Assembly (NCBI RefSeq): GCF_015206995.1
Contig: NZ_JADEXR010000022.1
Location: forward strand, 1-61,273
Direction: 5' to 3'
Origin: an aff. Roholtiella sp. LEGE 12411
Lineage (GTDB): Bacteria; Cyanobacteriota; Cyanobacteriia; Cyanobacteriales; Nostocaceae
DNA: 61,273 nt
Shown: positions 10,319 to 27,743 of the stretch, piece by piece
Layout: the number at the start of each line of letters is the position of its first letter
Position numbering within the stretch: the first letter of the stretch is position 1
The notes under the pieces: generated by a model
What the model saw: the letters and a program-made list of their open reading frames with translations, nothing else
Databases searched by the model: none
What the model was told of the DNA's origin: nothing
Made by a program: the position numbers and the translations under genes

Positions 10319-11224
10319 CTAATGACTAAATCGATAGCGACTTCCCATAACATAATCCTCATTACTTTCAAAAGATATCCATTGGCGTTGTAAAGTTTCA
10401 GCAACAAATCCGGTTGTGTTGGAACCTGCAAAGGGGTCTAAAACTATATCACCTTCATCAGTTAAAAATTTGATGAAGAACTCGGCGAACCCTTGAGGAA
10501 AACGTGCTGGATGGGGCTTAACTCCTGCTGCTTTACATTGCCGTAAATAAGTACTATTTGATTCAGTGTTGGCAATTTCTAACAAATTTGGTGGAATTGC
10601 ACCCTGGTTATCTTTTTGAAACTTATCAGAAATATCATGTCCGCTAGGACGTATTTTGGCCTTATAACCATTTTTGAGTAATTGCTTCATACTTTGGCTA
10701 TATGGCTTTAAAATTTTTCTGTTGTCTGCTTTAGGACTCGGTGTTTTAGCCAACCACCAAACTACATTTACTGAATCTTTCACCCGAATTCGCCTGATTG
10801 TCACCCACTCAGCAGGGGTTGGCAGTCGAGCCGGATTGTAGTGGTAGAATTCTTGAGCGAGAAAAAAACCTACTTCCTTGCACAATCTAACTAAAAGTTC
10901 GTATTGGTAGATACTCCGCACAGGATTACCAGGAAGATAAGCACCGCCTAAATCCAAAACAAATGAGCCATTATCTGCCAAAACTCGTTTAAATTCATAG
11001 GCAAAAGGCAGAAACCACTCAATGTATTTTTCAGCGCTTTCGTTACCGTATTCTTTTTTTCGAGTTAAAGCAAAAGGAGGTGAAGTCAGGATTAAATTAA
11101 TACTATTATCATCAATGAATTTGATGAGTTTAAGGCTATCACCCAAATACACTGCTCCATTATTTTGGGTGTAATAGGCATTAAAAATTATTTCTTTGGG
11201 TGGAGTTATTTGTTCTTCTTTCAA
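10319..11224 (-). CDS. DNA methyltransferase, beta-class, PvuII-like (probable N4-cytosine)
   Basis: The catalytic motif IV TSPPF (residues 47-51) precedes the SAM-binding motif DPFAGSNTT (about 262-270), the permuted order of beta-class amino-methyltransferases. Blocks such as LTRKKEYGN, GGAYLPGNP, RPSGHDI, IPPNLLEIANTESNSTYL and HPARFP resemble, from memory, the PvuII N4-cytosine methyltransferase, so m4C is the likelier product than m6A; the target site cannot be read from sequence. No restriction endonuclease is recognisable beside it, so it is a solitary enzyme or the remnant of a restriction-modification system. Length, 301 aa, is close to PvuII-type enzymes. Such orphan methyltransferases are frequent in cyanobacteria. 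Confidence 0.87.
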   Translation of the reverse strand: MKEEQITPPKEIIFNAYYTQNNGAVYLGDSLKLIKFIDDNSINLILTSPPFALTRKKEYGNESAEKYIEWFLPFAYEFKRVLADNGSFVLDLGGAYLPGNPVRSIYQYELLVRLCKEVGFFLAQEFYHYNPARLPTPAEWVTIRRIRVKDSVNVVWWLAKTPSPKADNRKILKPYSQSMKQLLKNGYKAKIRPSGHDISDKFQKDNQGAIPPNLLEIANTESNSTYLRQCKAAGVKPHPARFPQGFAEFFIKFLTDEGDIVLDPFAGSNTTGFVAETLQRQWISFESNEDYVMGSRYRFSH

Positions 11225-18853: not shown

Positions 18854-20017
18854 GTGAAAAAATTTTCAAAAATATCACTGTTGGTTTCAGACTTATCAAG
18901 TGCGGCTATTCTGCGTGCATACCTGATAGGAATAGCCCTGATGAAGCTAGGGCTAGAAGTTGAAATTATGGGGTTTTTATTTGGAAAAAATTTGTATAGA
19001 AATTTACCATCAGAGTTAAATATTTATCATTTACCTGGCAAAAACTTTCCAGCCTTTTTTGGTGAAATGAGAAAACTTTTGCCCAAAATTAATGGAGATA
19101 TAATTTATGCAATTAAACCACAAACAGCAAGTTTTGGAGTTGCCCTACTAAAAAAACTATATAGCCAAAAACCACTAATTTTAGATATAGATGATTGGGA
19201 ACTTAGTTGGCATGGTGGTGATGACTGGCACTATCATCCTACACTCAAACAATTAGCTAGAGAATTATTAAAACCAGACGGCGCACTTAGAAATCCTTAT
19301 CATCCTTTGTACGTGAAATGGATGGAAGGTTTAGTAAATCGCGCTGATGCTGTGACGGTGCATACTACATTTTTACAACAGCGTTTTGGCGGTACATTTG
19401 TTCCCAATGGCAAAGATATTTCCTTATTTGATCCTGCTCGATATAATCCTGAGTCCAGCAGAATTCGCTATGGTTTATCTGAATATCGTATCTTAATGTT
19501 TCCTGGTGCGCCAAGACCTTATAAAGGCTTAGAAGATGTTCTGATAGCATTAGATAAAATTAATCAACCAGACTTGAAACTAGTGATTGTGGGTGGCAGT
19601 CCTTATGATGATTATGATCAGCAACTTCAACAACAGTGGGGACGCTGGATTATCAAACTGCCAAAGTATCCAACTGATGTTATGCCTGATTTGGTAGCGG
19701 CTGCTCACATTATTGTTGTTCCCCAGCGAGATACCCTTGAAACTCGTGCTCAATTTCCTCTCAAGTTGACAGATGGCATGGCAATGGCTAAACCTGTATT
19801 ATCAACCCGCGTTGGAGATATTCCAAAAATTTTAGGCAATACTGGTTATCTGGTTGAGCCTGCTTGTCCTGAACAAATTGCTGAACAAATTCAATTGATA
19901 TTTCAAGATTTAGAGTCGGCGAACCAGCTAGCTCTCAAGGCAAGAGAAAGATGTGTGGAGCACTACAGTATAGAGGCTATGGCTTCGACGCTTAATTCAA
20001 TAATTTCTCGGTTATAA
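18854..20017 (+). CDS. Glycosyltransferase family 4
   Basis: A GT-B fold enzyme of 387 residues with a GTG start. The N-domain has a strand-helix pattern from residue 5 (ISLLVSDLSSAAILRAYLIGIALMKLG). The C-domain carries FPGAPRPYKGLEDVLIALDKI (hinge and start of the donor domain), VIVGGSPYDDYDQQL, and a divergent donor site FPLKLTDGMAMAKPVLSTRVGDIPKIL in which the usual E-x7-E is replaced by the KLTDGMAMAKPV variant. It is 17 bp after the GT-A gene. The donor sugar cannot be read. Confidence 0.8.
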   Translation: MKKFSKISLLVSDLSSAAILRAYLIGIALMKLGLEVEIMGFLFGKNLYRNLPSELNIYHLPGKNFPAFFGEMRKLLPKINGDIIYAIKPQTASFGVALLKKLYSQKPLILDIDDWELSWHGGDDWHYHPTLKQLARELLKPDGALRNPYHPLYVKWMEGLVNRADAVTVHTTFLQQRFGGTFVPNGKDISLFDPARYNPESSRIRYGLSEYRILMFPGAPRPYKGLEDVLIALDKINQPDLKLVIVGGSPYDDYDQQLQQQWGRWIIKLPKYPTDVMPDLVAAAHIIVVPQRDTLETRAQFPLKLTDGMAMAKPVLSTRVGDIPKILGNTGYLVEPACPEQIAEQIQLIFQDLESANQLALKARERCVEHYSIEAMASTLNSIISRL

Positions 20018-20188: not shown

Positions 20189-22438
20189 ATGTCTACCAGA
20201 AAACTACTACTAAGATTTGCTAAACCATATCCAGGTTTGATTCTGTTAACAATATTATTAGGATTTTCTGGAGCTTTATTTAATGGGGTCAGCACAGCTC
20301 TAATTGTGCCAGTGGTTTTAAGAATTGTAGGGCAAGAAGTAGATTTAAGTCGTGCCCCTACTATTCTCAAAGCAATAATGTCTCCGTTTGAAAATATTCC
20401 AGTGAATTACCGCACGGCAGTAATGGCTGGAGCAATTATATTCATAATTATTTTAAAAAATTTAGCCGCTTATGCCAGTGCTTTAGCATCAAGCTCTTTA
20501 ACACGATCGCTAACAGCAGATATGCGAGAAGCCGGACTAAGGTTGTTACTAGAAATTGACATAGATTATTACGCTAAGACAAAAGTTGGTGATTTAATTA
20601 ATAGACTTGGTGGTGAAATCGGTCGTGCGGCAGGTGCTGTAGGGAGTACAGTCAAGTTAGGTATTTTAGGGATTACTATTTTAGTTTTTGTTGGGTTATT
20701 ACTGTCAATTTCTTGGCAGTTGACGATTGCTTCAACGATTTTACTATCGTTAGTAACATTAATAAATCAGTATGCTATTTATCGTTCTAAAAAGTTTGGT
20801 AAACAGCTTAGTGATATGTCTAAAGCATATTCAATTACTGTACTGGAAACCCTGAACGGGGTTCGATTAGTCAAGGCAACTGGAAACGAAGAGAAAGAAT
20901 ATAAACGCATTAAAAAGCTAATCCGCGATCGCGAAAAAGCAGATTTTCAATCTCAGGTAAATTCGGCAGCGATCACACCTCTGAGTGAAGTTATGGGCAT
21001 TACAGCTTTACTGCTGATTGTACTTTTAAGTAAAATCTTCTTTGCCAACCAGATTACTTCTCTTGCCCCTGTACTCTTAACATACTTATTCTTACTGCTG
21101 CGAGTGCTGCCATTAATTTCTGAATTAAATACTATTCGCAGCAACTTTGCGAGTACTGCTACCAGTGTGGATGTAGCTAGTGAGTTTTTGAGCTTAGATG
21201 ATAAGCCATTCATGGGCAATGGTAAACTTCCCTACACCAAATTACAAGAGGGAGTGCGTTTTAATTCCCTTTCCTTTGCTTACCCCAGTCATGATAAGTT
21301 GGTGCTCCAAGATGTGAATTTATACTTACCGCATGGCACAACCTTAGCATTGGTAGGCGGTTCAGGTGCTGGTAAATCCACTTTGGCAGACCTTTTACCC
21401 AGATTTTACGATCCAACATCTGGCTGTATTACCATTGATGACACTGATTTGCGTGAGTTCGATGCTGTATCCCTGCGAAAGCGGATGGGCATTGTCAGCC
21501 AAGATACCTTTCTGTTCAATGATTCGGTAGGGAATAACATTGCCTATGGACGATCAGAAGCTACCGAAGATGAAATTATCACAGCGGCAAAGCGGGCAAA
21601 TGCCTATGAGTTTATCAGTAAATTACCCCAAGGTTTTGACACCCTGATTGGCGATCGCGGCGTCATGTTGTCTGGTGGACAAAGACAAAGATTAGCGATC
21701 GCCCGCGCCCTGCTACAAAATCCAGACATTCTCATACTTGATGAAGCTACCAGTGCTTTAGATACCGTTTCCGAACGCTTAGTACAAGCTGCACTCGATG
21801 ATCTCAGTCGCGATCGTACAACCCTAGTAATTGCTCACCGTCTTTCTACAGTCCAAAAAGCCGATCAAATTGCTGTATTAGATCAAGGATGTGTAGTAGA
21901 AGTAGGAACCCATGAAGAACTCTTGCAAAAAGGTGGTTACTACTCACGCTTATACTCAATGCAATTTGCTGAACAACCAGAAGCTATTGTCAAACGTAAT
22001 CAAAGCTTGCTCCGCATTTCTCATGAAATTCGGACGCAGTTGAATTCAATGATTGGATTCCTACGTTTATTACTTGATGATATGGTAGACAATTCTCAAG
22101 AACGGCAGGAATTAATTGAAGAATCATACAAATCAGCTTGGAGAATTCTCAACACAATTGATGTTTTTGACGATGTTGTTAACATGCAATTGAAAGGTAA
22201 ATTATTCTCAACTTATGAACAAAATCATAGCGTTTTAACCAGTCAATATGAAATATTTAATCATATTTTGATTGAATTTAAGATTGGTCTTAATCCTATA
22301 CTTGGTTCTCTCCGTTCTCTAGCTGATAATTTGATATATACCCAAAAAGAACAGAAGGAATTAGTTAAAGAAACGTATGATTCTACTATCTACCTGCTAG
22401 ATAACTTAGAAAAAATTGAGGATAAAATTACCGTATAA
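20189..22438 (+). CDS. ABC exporter (MsbA/HepA type) with two C-terminal HisKA-like repeats
   Basis: Residues 1-320 form a six-helix transmembrane domain, and 345-590 an ATPase domain with Walker A GGSGAGKST (K396), signature LSGGQ (S495) and Walker B ILDEATS (D518-E519). This is the usual half-transporter of about 600 residues for lipid-linked sugars or glycolipids. It continues for about 150 more residues. The extension contains SHEIRTQLNSMIGF (H612), which looks like a histidine-kinase phosphoacceptor helix, then a second helix; a second copy at about 695-746 aligns without gaps but has Ile at the histidine position. No HATPase domain is present. It lies inside the glycan cluster with a GT4 gene starting 4 bp downstream, so glycan export is the probable job. 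Confidence 0.88.
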   Translation: MSTRKLLLRFAKPYPGLILLTILLGFSGALFNGVSTALIVPVVLRIVGQEVDLSRAPTILKAIMSPFENIPVNYRTAVMAGAIIFIIILKNLAAYASALASSSLTRSLTADMREAGLRLLLEIDIDYYAKTKVGDLINRLGGEIGRAAGAVGSTVKLGILGITILVFVGLLLSISWQLTIASTILLSLVTLINQYAIYRSKKFGKQLSDMSKAYSITVLETLNGVRLVKATGNEEKEYKRIKKLIRDREKADFQSQVNSAAITPLSEVMGITALLLIVLLSKIFFANQITSLAPVLLTYLFLLLRVLPLISELNTIRSNFASTATSVDVASEFLSLDDKPFMGNGKLPYTKLQEGVRFNSLSFAYPSHDKLVLQDVNLYLPHGTTLALVGGSGAGKSTLADLLPRFYDPTSGCITIDDTDLREFDAVSLRKRMGIVSQDTFLFNDSVGNNIAYGRSEATEDEIITAAKRANAYEFISKLPQGFDTLIGDRGVMLSGGQRQRLAIARALLQNPDILILDEATSALDTVSERLVQAALDDLSRDRTTLVIAHRLSTVQKADQIAVLDQGCVVEVGTHEELLQKGGYYSRLYSMQFAEQPEAIVKRNQSLLRISHEIRTQLNSMIGFLRLLLDDMVDNSQERQELIEESYKSAWRILNTIDVFDDVVNMQLKGKLFSTYEQNHSVLTSQYEIFNHILIEFKIGLNPILGSLRSLADNLIYTQKEQKELVKETYDSTIYLLDNLEKIEDKITV

Positions 22439-22442
22439 AATT

Positions 22443-23654
22443 ATGAAAACTGCTAATTTAAAAAAACATTACATTTTTTTTATTGGTGAACAATTGCCCC
22501 AGCCAGAGGCTCACTTAGTACAGTCCACAAATGCAGCTAACGCCGCCGCTAACTTGGGATATTCAACAGTTTTGGTATACCCCGATAAACAATCAAGAGC
22601 TATTAACCTAGCTAATTTAGCTTCTCCTTTTCTACCTAAAAAAACTCCGACAGAACTTATTAAATATTACAACCTTAATGACAAGTTGAAAGTTGCTCCC
22701 TTACCAATGCCTTGGCCGATTGATCATTTTCAAAGCAAATTCACTGACTCTAACACCATTGCCACTAAGTACTATTTACCATTTTATATACTTCCCACTA
22801 CCAAACTTGTCCATAGCCGCAACTGGAATTTTGTAAAAGCTGCCATCAAAAATGGCATTCCCGCAATTTACGAACACCATCATCACGAAGATAAGCTATT
22901 CGAGCCAGAAATTGTCAAAAGTCCGCTGTTTCAAATTGCTGTCACAGTTGTAGACGCCATCCGCGAAACCATGATTAAAAATGGCATTCCACCAGAAAAA
23001 GTGATTAAACTGCACAATGGTTTTAACCGCTTATTTATGCAGAGACAACCAGAAAAAGCCGCAGAATGGCGCAAAAAATTACTGAAAAATCAGCGATCGC
23101 ATTTGGTAGTGTATGCAGGAGCGCTACAACAATTTAAAGGTATTGATGTACTAATTGACGTGGCTAGTGAAATGCCAAATGTGCAATTTGTCTGTGCAGG
23201 TGGTAAGTCAACAGAAGTCGAATACTATCAGCAATTAGCAAAAGAAAAGCAGGTTCAGAACATTACATTTTTAGGTTATGTTTTGCATCATGAGTTAGCA
23301 TCTTTGCTACAAGCAGCCGATATTTTAGCTCATCCTCATTGTTCAGGAAAAGCAGCAACTTTTACATCTCCCCTAAAGCTGTTTGACTACTTCGCCTCTG
23401 GAACTCCGATTGTAGCCACGGAAATTCCATCATTAATTGAGTTTCAAGATACTAAAGCTATCGCTGCTTGGTGTGAGCCAGATAACCCTAGCAAATTCGC
23501 CGAATGTTTGAAGCGAGTTCTACAAACTCATCCCAAAAGAGTAGAGGGTTATCCAGATAGTGTTGAGTTTGTCAAGCAATTTTCTTGGGAAAATAGAGCG
23601 GCAAAAATCCTTAGTTACGTCGATACATCTCTACTTCCCCCACTTATTGCGTAA
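22443..23654 (+). CDS. Glycosyltransferase family 4
   Basis: A 403-residue GT-B enzyme. An N-terminal strand (HYIFFIGEQLPQPEAHLV) and linker lead to the donor domain: VVYAGALQQFKGIDVLIDVA, VCAGGKSTEVEYYQQLA, NITFLGYVLHHELASLLQAADILAHP and the donor-site SPLKLFDYFASGTPIVATEIPSL, which corresponds to the E-x7-E motif with variation. The open frame begins earlier at a TTG (22416), inside the ABC exporter gene, but ATG 22443, just after that gene's stop, is the natural start. The sugar is unknown. Confidence 0.82.
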   Translation: MKTANLKKHYIFFIGEQLPQPEAHLVQSTNAANAAANLGYSTVLVYPDKQSRAINLANLASPFLPKKTPTELIKYYNLNDKLKVAPLPMPWPIDHFQSKFTDSNTIATKYYLPFYILPTTKLVHSRNWNFVKAAIKNGIPAIYEHHHHEDKLFEPEIVKSPLFQIAVTVVDAIRETMIKNGIPPEKVIKLHNGFNRLFMQRQPEKAAEWRKKLLKNQRSHLVVYAGALQQFKGIDVLIDVASEMPNVQFVCAGGKSTEVEYYQQLAKEKQVQNITFLGYVLHHELASLLQAADILAHPHCSGKAATFTSPLKLFDYFASGTPIVATEIPSLIEFQDTKAIAAWCEPDNPSKFAECLKRVLQTHPKRVEGYPDSVEFVKQFSWENRAAKILSYVDTSLLPPLIA

Positions 23655-23859: not shown

Positions 23860-24819
23860 ATGAATATAAAAACTGTAGGTATGATTAGCAGCTATCGAGG
23901 TTTAGAAACTAGAGGCGATTGGCTGTGGCAACAAACCCCAAATCAATTTGGAATTTGGGGCAATATGCAAATGTTAGCACTAGCACCAAAACCAGATTTT
24001 TTGATGATGTATCAGTTTGATTTTCCCAAAACATTGCCACATAAATCTTGGTTAGATAATTTTCGCAACCCGCAGCAAGCATCAGAATTAAACATCGATT
24101 CTCTATTGCGTAATGTCAATAAAGAGCGAATTATTTATTTACTCAGAGAACCACCTTTAGATGAAATTGTACAAATAAACAATCATAATTATCAACAAGC
24201 TCAGAAGTATTGTGGCTATGTTTCTGGCCCTGATGATTTTGCTCCTACTCCTGACTATATGCCTGCTATTTGGTATCACTCAAATACCTTTCAAGATTTA
24301 AATGAAATGCCATGTCCTCAAAAAGTTGCTCCATGCAGTTGGATTACTTCAGGAATTAGCCGTACAGCTAACCACCGCCAGCGTTTAGACTTTTTGCAGT
24401 CTATACAATCAAGTGAAATTAAGTTTGATTTGTATGGGCGGAACTTACCCGTATGGGCGAAAACATTAGGAGAACTTAGTAATAAGTGGTATGGGATGGC
24501 GCCTTACTACTACAATCTATCAATTGAAAATTATGCTGATAATAATTGGTATGTAAGTGAGAAACTTTGGGATAGTTTGCTTGCTTGGTGTCTACCGATT
24601 TACTATGGTGGCTCGGCTGCTGATAAATTGTTGCCACCTGGTAGTTTTTTAAGATTGCCTAGTTTAGATGAAAAAGGCGTTGCTTATATCCAAGAAGTGA
24701 CCTCTACACCTGATGCTTGGTATGCTGCCAAGGATGCGATCGCAGAAGCACGTCAAATTATATTACACAAATTAAATCTGCTCAACTGGCTATCAAATTT
24801 TGTTACTCAACACTCATAA
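23860..24819 (+). CDS. GT10-like (alpha-1,3-fucosyltransferase type) protein
   Basis: A 319-residue soluble protein. The diagnostic segment is YNLSIENYADNNWYVSEKLWDSLLAWCLPIYYGGSAADKLLPPGSFL (about residues 218-264), which follows the GT10 donor-site pattern of a FENxxxxxYVTEKL helix and a P-Y-G-x2 strand. N-terminal residues about 1-150 hold the acceptor domain and are divergent. It is likely to use GDP-fucose or a related GDP-sugar. It begins the last stretch of the glycan cluster and ends 3 bp before the first of three paralogous genes, so it is in the same operon. Confidence 0.72.
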   Translation: MNIKTVGMISSYRGLETRGDWLWQQTPNQFGIWGNMQMLALAPKPDFLMMYQFDFPKTLPHKSWLDNFRNPQQASELNIDSLLRNVNKERIIYLLREPPLDEIVQINNHNYQQAQKYCGYVSGPDDFAPTPDYMPAIWYHSNTFQDLNEMPCPQKVAPCSWITSGISRTANHRQRLDFLQSIQSSEIKFDLYGRNLPVWAKTLGELSNKWYGMAPYYYNLSIENYADNNWYVSEKLWDSLLAWCLPIYYGGSAADKLLPPGSFLRLPSLDEKGVAYIQEVTSTPDAWYAAKDAIAEARQIILHKLNLLNWLSNFVTQHS

Positions 24820-24822
24820 ACT

Positions 24823-25797
24823 ATGGATGGTATTTGTACGCTTGGGAATGATTATGTTTTTGATCAACTGGTTGCTTTACTCAACAGTATTGATGTGATA
24901 TTGGGCAAAGAAATTCCTGTTTGCATCTATCCTTTTGATGACCAAATACAGCGGATTATTGATGAAATAGCTCAGCGTCCTAATGTATTTATTTACGATA
25001 ATCAAGAATCAATCAACCGCTGGGATAAATTTATGTTAGAGGCTAGTCCTGCTAGCATGAACAAGAATAAGTACAGAATTTATGGTGGTCATCGACGCTT
25101 TTGTGCATTTGATGGCCCTTTTGATAGATTTGTCTATCTCGATGCCGATACTCTAGTGATGAATTCACTAGATTTTATTTTTGAAAAATTAGATGAATAC
25201 AACTGTGTTGTTTATGATTTCCAGTTTAAATATCCAGATAAAGTTTATAACATCAATTCAGATAAATTATTCCAAGTTTTTGAAGAAAATCGGATAAAAA
25301 CTGAAATTTTTTGCTCAGGATTTTACGCTTCTAAAAAAGGGCTATTTGACCAATCTAAACTAGAACAATTGTTATTTTATTTGAAAACTGGTGAGAGAGA
25401 AATACTCTATCCCACAGGAGATCAGCCAGTTCTGAACTATATGTTTATGAGGTCTGGTATACCAGTTTACAACTTTGCTCATCATTTACCAAATAATCAA
25501 GTTACAGGCTGTTCTGTTACTTCTAAACATTTTGAAGAACAAGATAGAATTCTTTATGATAAAGGGACTCGATTAACTTATCTGCATTATATTGGTATTC
25601 CTCCTAATATTAATCAAGCAGTTTGTGCTGGAGAAAATATTGAGTTTCCCTATCGAGATTTATTTCTCTACTATCGTTACTTGCATGAACCAGAGAAGCG
25701 TCCAGTCTTTAACAATCCTCCTAAGCGTTATGACGCTCCACCACCGAGTTTACTTACAAGAACGTTGCGAAAATTAAAGTTAATTAATCAAGGGTAA
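24823..25797 (+). CDS. GT-A-like putative glycosyltransferase, tandem paralogue 1
   Basis: A 324-residue protein with an N-terminal strand (MDGICTLGNDYVFDQLVALLNS), a metal-type motif D107-A-D109 in FVYLDADTLVM, CSGFYASKKG and GDQPVLNYMF in the middle, a TYLHYIG segment that could supply the C-terminal catalytic or metal His, and a conserved FLYYRYLHEPE end. This is the layout of a GT8-like enzyme. The next two genes share all these blocks. No sugar can be named. The gene follows the GT10-like gene by 3 bp. Confidence 0.7.
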   Translation: MDGICTLGNDYVFDQLVALLNSIDVILGKEIPVCIYPFDDQIQRIIDEIAQRPNVFIYDNQESINRWDKFMLEASPASMNKNKYRIYGGHRRFCAFDGPFDRFVYLDADTLVMNSLDFIFEKLDEYNCVVYDFQFKYPDKVYNINSDKLFQVFEENRIKTEIFCSGFYASKKGLFDQSKLEQLLFYLKTGEREILYPTGDQPVLNYMFMRSGIPVYNFAHHLPNNQVTGCSVTSKHFEEQDRILYDKGTRLTYLHYIGIPPNINQAVCAGENIEFPYRDLFLYYRYLHEPEKRPVFNNPPKRYDAPPPSLLTRTLRKLKLINQG

Positions 25798-25801
25798 TCC
25801 T

Positions 25802-26692
25802 ATGAGTCGAGGAATTTATATAGTTGCCAATGACCGTGTTATTGATAATGCGATCGCTTTACTCAATAGTATTCGTCACTATGACCCAGAAGTGACCGTT
25901 TATCTCATTCCTTTTAATGATAACTATCACAAAGTGGCAGAGCAGCTTGCCGACTTACATAATGTACAAGTTTTCCCAGATTTAGAATTTCTTGAGAACT
26001 TAACTAAACGCATAGGGGAAATTTTTGATCGAGATTTCCTCGCATTACCTAATAAAATGCGTAAACTAGTGGCATGGTTTGGGCCTTTAGATGAGTTTAT
26101 TTATATTGATACTGATATTGTCGTTTTTGAAAAAATCGCTGACAATTTAGACAAGCTTTCAAAAGTCGATTTTTTTTGTTGCGATTATCATCATGCTAAC
26201 GAAAAGCTACGGAATGTTTTTTCCCCATTTGTACAAGAACGACAAATTTTTTCAGATGCTCAATTAGAAGACGTTTTCAATAGTGGCTTTTGGGCTTCTA
26301 GAAAGGGAGTTATTACCGAGCAACAGATGGATGAAGCTTTACGCGAGTGTGCAATGCATCGCGAATATTTCGATTTTTCTGAAGGTGTTACAGACCAACC
26401 TATTCTGAATTATCTTGTTCTCAAGCTGATTGCTAAACGTGGGAATCTCGTCAAAATTCCTGGGGGTGGGCCTGGTAGTTGGGCAGGTTCGCGAAATTTT
26501 CAACAGCAAGATTACGCTCTTTATGACCGAGGACAAAGACTAAAATATCTCCACTGGGCTGGTACGCGGATTAAAATTGGTAGTCCTTATTGGCAATTAT
26601 GGGAACACTATCGTTACCTTCATGAAGGGAAATTTGCCTTCATTCCAAAATTGACTCGCCGTTTATTTCCTTTTGTTTTTGCCCGAACTTAA
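25802..26692 (+). CDS. GT-A-like putative glycosyltransferase, tandem paralogue 2
   Basis: A 296-residue relative of its neighbours: MSRGIYIVANDRVIDNAIALLNS, D103-T-D105 in FIYIDTDIVVF, NSGFWASRKG, TDQPILNYLV, KYLHWAG and WEHYRYLHEGK. It is the most divergent of the three, lacking the WDKF insertion seen in the others. It begins 4 bp after paralogue 1 and ends 16 bp before paralogue 3. Its start is ATG. Confidence 0.7.
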   Translation: MSRGIYIVANDRVIDNAIALLNSIRHYDPEVTVYLIPFNDNYHKVAEQLADLHNVQVFPDLEFLENLTKRIGEIFDRDFLALPNKMRKLVAWFGPLDEFIYIDTDIVVFEKIADNLDKLSKVDFFCCDYHHANEKLRNVFSPFVQERQIFSDAQLEDVFNSGFWASRKGVITEQQMDEALRECAMHREYFDFSEGVTDQPILNYLVLKLIAKRGNLVKIPGGGPGSWAGSRNFQQQDYALYDRGQRLKYLHWAGTRIKIGSPYWQLWEHYRYLHEGKFAFIPKLTRRLFPFVFART

Positions 26693-26708
26693 TATTAGGA
26701 GTATCCCG

Positions 26709-27743
26709 ATGACCGATGGTATTTATATCCTAGGTAATGATGTAGTTTATGACCAAGTAGTTGCGTTGCTCAACAGTATAGAAGCTAATGCTGGTAGGAA
26801 AATTCCTATTTGTATAATTCCATATAATGAACGATTAGATAGAGTACGAGAAGAGATTGCAGCTAGAGATAATGTCACTTTATTTGAAAACTCTGCTGCC
26901 ATTTTTTACTGGGATAAATTTGCAACCCAGATATGGAAAAATTATCCAAGGGCACAAAAAACTTGGCGAGAGTGGGGCTTTTCTCAACTCTATGAGTTAC
27001 CGATGCACCGCAAATTTTGTGCTGTGGATGGGCCCTTTGATAAATTTATTTATTTTGATGCAGATACCTTGTTAATGGGGCCGATAGATTATGTATATGA
27101 AAAGTTAGATAGTTATGATTGGGTAGTAAATGATTTTCAGTATAAGTCTGACTTGAAGTACATTTTTGATGGTTCACCAGAGCTTCTACAGCAAGTTTTC
27201 AATCAGGAAAAATTGCAGTCTCAAATATTCTGTGCTGGTTGGTTTGCATCTAAAAAAAATATTTTTACTCAGATTATGGTGACAGATATCCTCAGTAAAT
27301 TAGAGGCTGGTGAAGCTGATGTAATGGCTTTAGTCGCACCTGACCAATCTGTATTTAATTACATGGTATTGAGGAGTGGAATTTCATATTATAACTTTGC
27401 TTACCATGACTCGGAGAAAGCGACTGGTAATCACTGGAGTTCTAAATTTGATGTGGTAGATAATGTCCTCTACGACCAAGGACGGCGGCTGACATATCTG
27501 CACTATATGAGTATCGGTGCATCAAACTTTACTCAACTTTGCGCTGGTGAAGATGTCAACGTTCCATACAGAGACGTGTTTTTGCATTATCGGTATTTAA
27601 AATCGCCAGAACAAAGACCTCAAAGTTTTAGGCTTGAGAGTCCGTTAATACGTCTACAAAAGACTACTAGCAGTTTTATTCAGCAAAAAGTTAACAATAT
27701 TAAGCTTAACTATCGTAACTTCAAGGATAGAATCACTCAATAA
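26709..27743 (+). CDS. GT-A-like putative glycosyltransferase, tandem paralogue 3
   Basis: A 344-residue paralogue closest to number 1: MTDGIYILGNDVVYDQVVALLNS, FYWDKF, D117-A-D119 in FIYFDADTLLM, CAGWFASKKN, APDQSVFNYMVL, TYLHYMS and FLHYRYLKSPE. The open frame reaches back into paralogue 2 (TTG at 26673), but the ATG at 26709 has a taggag ribosome-binding site and matches the paralogues. The C-terminal about 50 residues are basic and may bind membrane or RNA-like surfaces. It is the last gene of the plus-strand cluster. Confidence 0.7.
   Translation: MTDGIYILGNDVVYDQVVALLNSIEANAGRKIPICIIPYNERLDRVREEIAARDNVTLFENSAAIFYWDKFATQIWKNYPRAQKTWREWGFSQLYELPMHRKFCAVDGPFDKFIYFDADTLLMGPIDYVYEKLDSYDWVVNDFQYKSDLKYIFDGSPELLQQVFNQEKLQSQIFCAGWFASKKNIFTQIMVTDILSKLEAGEADVMALVAPDQSVFNYMVLRSGISYYNFAYHDSEKATGNHWSSKFDVVDNVLYDQGRRLTYLHYMSIGASNFTQLCAGEDVNVPYRDVFLHYRYLKSPEQRPQSFRLESPLIRLQKTTSSFIQQKVNNIKLNYRNFKDRITQ

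Follow-up and report, generated by a model that had tools for sequence, protein, structure and literature searches.

A cyanobacterial ABC exporter with a histidine-kinase-derived double hairpin tail, a candidate silent docking bundle

The 61,273-nucleotide contig NZ_JADEXR010000022.1 of the cyanobacterium aff. Roholtiella sp. LEGE 12411 (assembly GCF_015206995.1), analysed as a whole and called the window here, encodes an ATP-binding cassette (ABC) half-exporter of 749 residues whose C-terminal tail consists of two tandem hairpins homologous to HisKA, the phosphoacceptor (DHp) hairpin of histidine kinases. Judged from the genomes sampled, the tail-bearing exporter is deeply conserved in cyanobacteria and is a new combination of known parts. 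Why attach part of a kinase to a transporter? We favour, at a probability of roughly one half, the reading that the tail is a catalytically silent, HisKA-derived pseudo-DHp that serves as a regulatory docking bundle and works like DivL of Caulobacter. Known couplings of transporters to two-component systems involve separate proteins in contact with one another; here the kinase-derived hairpin is part of the exporter itself, and it has been kept across many cyanobacterial families after losing its defining residue. If the tail docks a receiver domain, signalling and cell-surface export would be directly connected, in a way open to testing.

The first-pass annotation, made from the sequence alone, had described a HisKA-like tail following a complete ABC half-transporter, and this description holds. 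The Pfam HisKA profile (PF00512) matches residues 604-658 at 39 bits (E 8e-10; curated cut-off 26.9), and no HATPase domain is matched in the exporter at E 0.01, as had also been claimed. The motif SHEIRTQLNSMIGF begins at residue 611, placing a His at 612, and the tail shares with HisKA kinases the S-x-E-x-R-T-x-L-N and I-G-F pattern and the two-helix hairpin. The proposed tandem duplication was likewise upheld: the ungapped alignment of residues 618-662 with 701-745 has 15 identities in 45 positions (about 16 had been counted), and none of 20000 shuffles of the second stretch reaches its score or its number of identities. Hairpin 2 by itself has no Pfam HisKA match, and it is matched at 52.7 bits (E 2.4e-13) by a profile of 20 exporter hairpins, 19 from relatives plus the window's first, in which it is not itself included; its counterpart of H612 is I695, the isoleucine noted at the outset. 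Searched against solved structures, the same profile matches histidine kinases, with 7n0e best (E 1.5e-5), RetS at 0.008 and DivL at 0.11. The shuffles and profile scores exclude a chance similarity to HisKA. A frameshifted or lost kinase domain downstream is also excluded, the next gene being a glycosyltransferase and the end of the tail being shared by relatives. Given 60 aligned orthologues from 81 rows, AlphaFold predicts for the tail four long helices arranged as two helical hairpins (pLDDT 83.0, pTM 0.77), the hairpin pair that the first-pass annotation had anticipated; the full-length model is poor and has the same four helices at residues 601-629, 636-671, 680-712 and 719-748.

Conservation was assessed on the best 80 of 516 matches, all full-length (the near loci), and on a further 40 and 20 stretches added from genomes of the same order and class, 140 loci overall. 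Alignments and counts leave out L147 (an interrupted frame of 472 residues), L151 (a 38% identical paralogue) and the G027 orthologue split over two frames; tail-less rows are excluded from residue counts, and L059 is kept though cut by a contig end. In the exporter's own family, the Nostocaceae, 52 of 60 genomes have exporter and tail, judged by reading the listings and counting one case split over two frames, and the remainder comprise one exporter without tail and seven genomes without a close orthologue. Tail-bearing orthologues outside the family are mostly 663-697 residues long with one hairpin, and their motif reads SYE[IV]RTRLN as against SHEIRTQLN inside it.

With H612 as position 0, the 40 rows of 23 other families have Tyr in 37 cases and His, Phe and Arg in one each; these rows include several near-identical pairs, such as L176/L177 and L180/L181, and are not 40 independent cases, so that the family count, Tyr in 21 of 23, is the better measure. 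The 93 own-family rows have His 68, Tyr 16, Asp 3, Gly 2, Val 2, Asn 1 and Gln 1, a His share that is if anything overestimated, as the best 80 of 516 matches supply most of these rows. The surroundings behave differently. Arg+3 is present in 40/40 rows outside the family and 89/93 inside, Glu+1 in 37/40 and 92/93, Ser-1 in 39/40 and 85/93, and Asn+7 in 34/40 and 89/93; Leu+6 occupies 40/40 rows outside, and position +4 is Thr (24) or Ser (10) in the 40 outside and Thr in 85/93 inside. The H-box Pro at +5, usual in kinases, occurs in 0 of 133 tails. Entropy at the five polar box positions is 0.61 and 0.36 bits, compared with 1.40 and 0.78 at presumed core positions, which we assigned from the hydrophobic pattern and not from a structure. 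On the exporter tree, which was built quickly and leaves many forks open and its root uncertain, the His/Tyr site changed at least 9 times, or 17 times counting other residues and gaps. Exchange is easy because the two codons lie one base apart; the adjoining site is not exchanged. Since the rows surrounding the Nostocaceae carry Tyr, that residue seems to predate His in the exporter.

These counts bear directly on H612. The first-pass annotation had proposed that the exporter may be phosphorylated in trans, and had named a lack of conservation of H612 among orthologues as a refutation. H612 is not conserved: the window has the His, and the conserved phosphoacceptor expected of HisKA is seen in 1 of 40 rows outside the family and in 68 of 93 inside. 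Phosphorylation of H612 in trans is therefore not supported as a conserved function. A more specific version, in which a kinase or phosphorylated receiver modifies H612 and the tandem hairpins form a single-chain phosphotransfer bundle, strikes us as improbable, given the prevalence of Tyr elsewhere, the repeated loss of His within the family even in a sample of the nearest matches, and the lack of both a HATPase domain and the H-box Pro.

A DHp without His, Pro or ATPase domain has no means of acting as a kinase on its own, and the exchange of His and Tyr while Arg+3 stays is the DivL pattern, which leads us to think that the tail docks a partner, likely a receiver. In the available excerpt of PMC4211667, DivL is described as having Tyr in place of the His and a dispensable CA domain; its Y550H substitution leaves receiver binding unchanged, and R553A (+3), T557N (+7) and Y562A (+12) weaken it. 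These mutant results fit the free His/Tyr exchange and the invariant Arg+3 of the exporter tails. Going by the same excerpt, the two share a DHp-type helix, Tyr for the phosphoacceptor His, Arg+3, a conserved patch around it and the lack of a kinase role. They differ in that DivL is a PAS-DHp-CA protein with its CA domain and Pro+5, whereas the hairpin here sits on an ABC exporter with neither, and receiver docking is putative. The Tyr of DivL is matched by 37 of the 40 non-family tails, whereas the window's own residue is His. The combination of His/Tyr exchange and an invariant Arg amounts to a natural series on what an unphosphorylatable DHp does.

We infer the pairing of the hairpins, the binding of a partner and the effect on export along the following lines. 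A HisKA hairpin would have been fused to the C-terminus of a HepA/MsbA-like exporter of glycans or glycolipids early in cyanobacterial history, and would then have lost its kinase function, with Tyr in place of His and neither H-box Pro nor ATPase domain, and been retained as a non-catalytic four-helix module. Where each subunit has one hairpin, the usual form outside the Nostocaceae, the homodimer would assemble a DHp dimer from its two hairpins beneath the ATPase domains, whereas with two per subunit, as in the window, each chain could close its own bundle. The polar patch at the old active site (Ser-1, Glu+1, Arg+3, Thr+4, Asn+7) is most likely a docking site, the most plausible partner being a receiver domain. 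Once bound, that partner would act through the paired hairpins on the way in which the ATPase domains come together, and so on export. The alternative offered by the first-pass annotation, that HisKA-like bundles serve dimerisation and tie the exporter to two-component signalling, may hold and comes close to this proposal, which puts the weight on the conserved surface surrounding the His and not on the His itself.

Several observations weigh against a docking bundle. Foldseek returns no match to the tail at E 0.001 or better, and fold comparison yields only general four-helix bundles, too general for assignment as an HPt domain. Only 1 of 5 Tyr-type tails, and neither of two tails that also carry a ComFB domain, scores above the HisKA cut-off. 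The tail is wholly missing in 8 rows (L144, L146, L148, L149, L150, L187, L188 and the interrupted L147); since several lineages are without it, the exporter can work without its tail. DivL, as excerpted, retains the Pro+5 found in none of the exporter tails, and Glu+1 is reported, in the part of PMC3510030 available, to be needed for kinase activity only, so that a silent DHp should have no need of it. Finally, kinase and receiver genes are not regularly found beside the exporter: blastp searches with three seeds at E 1e-4 over flanks of about 10 kb or less, which could miss some, place any such gene in 13 of 140 loci; a hybrid kinase at 5.3 kb of the window sits about 13 kb from the exporter, beyond most flanks searched. 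A conserved linkage to such genes is weakened by this count.

The hairpins might instead be a plain C-terminal zipper, a four-helix bundle that merely holds the ATPase domains, or neighbouring transporters, together with no signalling partner. C-terminal zippers occur in ABC exporters such as TmrAB. The four predicted helices would suit this role, a subunit with one hairpin must find another to complete a bundle, and copy number varies freely, going from one to two in two lineages and being zero in others. Arg+3 and Glu+1, which we read as part of a docking surface, could also serve helix packing or salt bridges in such a zipper. The polar box is nonetheless better conserved than the core as we assigned it, and an Arg+3 invariant in every other-family row goes beyond what a zipper needs. 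We consider the zipper possible, though we would not bet on it. That the tail is a non-functional fusion leftover retained by chance could be argued from the lineages without it and from the divergence of hairpin 2 (mean column identity 0.63 versus 0.78 for hairpin 1); its retention in 23 other families with invariant positions and its duplication at least twice make this a very remote prospect.

A further variant gives the tail an activity. The E613/R615/T616 stretch corresponds to the E/DxxT/N motif of HisKA kinases as given in the accessible part of PMC3510030, and E-x-x-T, the motif whose Thr is used by HisKA phosphatases, survives in the majority of own-family rows. This leaves room for the exporter itself to be a sensor phosphatase, its hairpin docking a response regulator and dephosphorylating it in step with the transport cycle. 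We think this unlikely; if true, an exporter with no kinase of its own would have glycan export flux read directly into gene expression.

How did the double hairpin arise? The Nostocaceae rows form one group on the tree, with two hairpins each. A family of another order (f36) also has two, both with Tyr (L179, L180, L181), amid single-hairpin neighbours. The second copies prefer a single-hairpin model over the other lineage's second copy (54.8 versus 40.0 bits, and 71.4 versus 54.8), and the tree, which has several open forks, requires three changes between one and two hairpins, counting the ComFB paralogues as two. This speaks for separate duplications in the Nostocaceae and f36, and a single shared origin is weakened by the same cross-model scores and tree. 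Three exporter paralogues of f36 (L176, L177, L178; 855-856 residues) carry a ComFB domain between the ATPase domain and Tyr-type hairpins. The tails of L176 and L178, the pair that was scanned, give 51.5 and 58.2 bits for ComFB against a cut-off of 25 and no HisKA match at E 0.1, yet the SYE-x-R motif is present. The C-terminal end of the exporter thus accepts regulatory domains. ComFB is reported as a c-di-AMP receptor in the excerpt of PMC12313861, and a c-di-AMP input to an ABC exporter is possible in these paralogues, which would add a second input at the same place; the window's protein has no ComFB domain. Two further relatives show local variation. L156 (G022) has two adjacent exporter genes, one with Asp in hairpin 1 and His in hairpin 2, the opposite of the window, and residues 617-633 of the L140 (G087) exporter contain the motif twice in a row, SHELRTRLSYEVRTRLN, with His in one copy and Tyr in the other, which resembles the duplication of a short segment.

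Among the 76 HisKA matches of the window's genome, 4 are not followed by a HATPase match within 1 kb: the exporter, a 53-residue frame on contig C128, and one each on C78 and C66. The C78 (39891-40091) and C66 (11339-11491) matches lie in HisKA proteins of 320- and 482-residue frames whose ends resemble degenerate ATPase domains by eye. With the C128 frame at 53 residues and the other two ending in such degenerate-looking domains, the exporter is the sole clear HisKA protein without a kinase part in this genome. Frames of 260-350 residues that match the hairpin profile recur in relatives and may be of the C78 kind. The best non-exporter match to the profile in the genome, at 61.7 bits with the next at 40.7, is the DHp of a 585-residue PAS/GAF-like kinase on C63, which retains His and Pro and has orthologue-like frames of about 600 residues in relatives; descent of the exporter hairpin from a C63-type kinase is a lead.

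The rest of the protein is a conventional type I half-exporter with a single ABC_membrane domain followed by a single ABC_tran domain, in which Walker A (GGSGAGKST), LSGGQ, the second Walker motif and the H-loop can be identified directly, so that the ATPase looks intact. The body aligns over the full length of the HepA (NF045513) and MsbA (TIGR02203) models, which stop at the ATPase domain, before the tail, with 565.4 and 452.8 bits, below their equivalog cut-offs of 725 and 602. The tail departs from HisKA kinases in having no HATPase domain and no Pro+5 and in that its His is not conserved among relatives, and no HATPase match lies near it in the genome. BceAB-BceS modules, as far as the excerpts describe them, likewise couple an ABC transporter to two-component signalling, through a kinase that is a separate protein, whereas here the kinase-derived domain lies within the transporter. 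The glycosyltransferase-rich neighbourhood (Table 1) makes a lipid-linked glycan the most likely cargo, which the protein would flip or export.

Table 1. The exporter, its domains and its neighbouring genes in the window; near and further loci are the 80 and 60 described in the text.
Feature	Coordinates	Strand	Basis
GT4-type glycosyltransferase	18854..20017	+	Pfam; relative beside exporter in 80/80 near, 52/60 further loci
ABC half-exporter with HisKA-derived double hairpin tail, 749 aa	20189..22438	+	Open reading frame list, Pfam, orthologues
ABC_membrane domain, residues 74-300	20408..21088	+	Pfam
ABC_tran ATPase domain, residues 373-522	21305..21754	+	Pfam
Hairpin 1, residues 604-662	21998..22174	+	HisKA above cut-off, exporter-hairpin profile, AlphaFold
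H612 codon; Tyr in most non-family relatives	22022..22024	+	Sequence, alignment counts
E613, R615, T616, retained flanking E-x-R-T	22025..22036	+	Alignment counts
Inter-hairpin linker, residues 663-686; lowest conservation in tail	22175..22246	+	Alignment
Hairpin 2, residues 687-745, diverged copy; Ile695 at His position	22247..22423	+	Exporter-hairpin profile, AlphaFold, alignment
Second GT4-type glycosyltransferase, frame from TTG 22416	22416..23654	+	Pfam; 68/80 near, 16/60 further loci
GT10 (fucosyltransferase-like) gene	23860..24819	+	Pfam; 79/80 near, 21/60 further loci
GT8-like gene	24823..25797	+	Pfam; 77/80 near, 21/60 further loci
Npun_R2821/Npun_R2822 family protein	25802..26692	+	NF045582 model; NF045582 proteins in 77/80 near, 19/60 further loci
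Second Npun_R2821/Npun_R2822 family protein	26673..27743	+	NF045582 model

The frame of the second GT4 gene overlaps the exporter's end when read from its TTG, and the more likely start is an ATG at 22443, directly behind the stop codon of the exporter; its position suggests that the two genes share one transcript. The two NF045582 genes are in tandem and overlap; they belong to a named family that has no stated function, and a literature search on five Npun_R28xx locus tags found no paper. A DNA methylase gene (N6_N4_Mtase; 10319-11224, minus strand) a few kb upstream of the glycan genes has no relative in the 140 flanking stretches. Upstream on the opposite strand, genes for glyoxalase II (69/80), ribosomal protein L9 (60/80) and DnaB (52/80) are often kept in the near loci.
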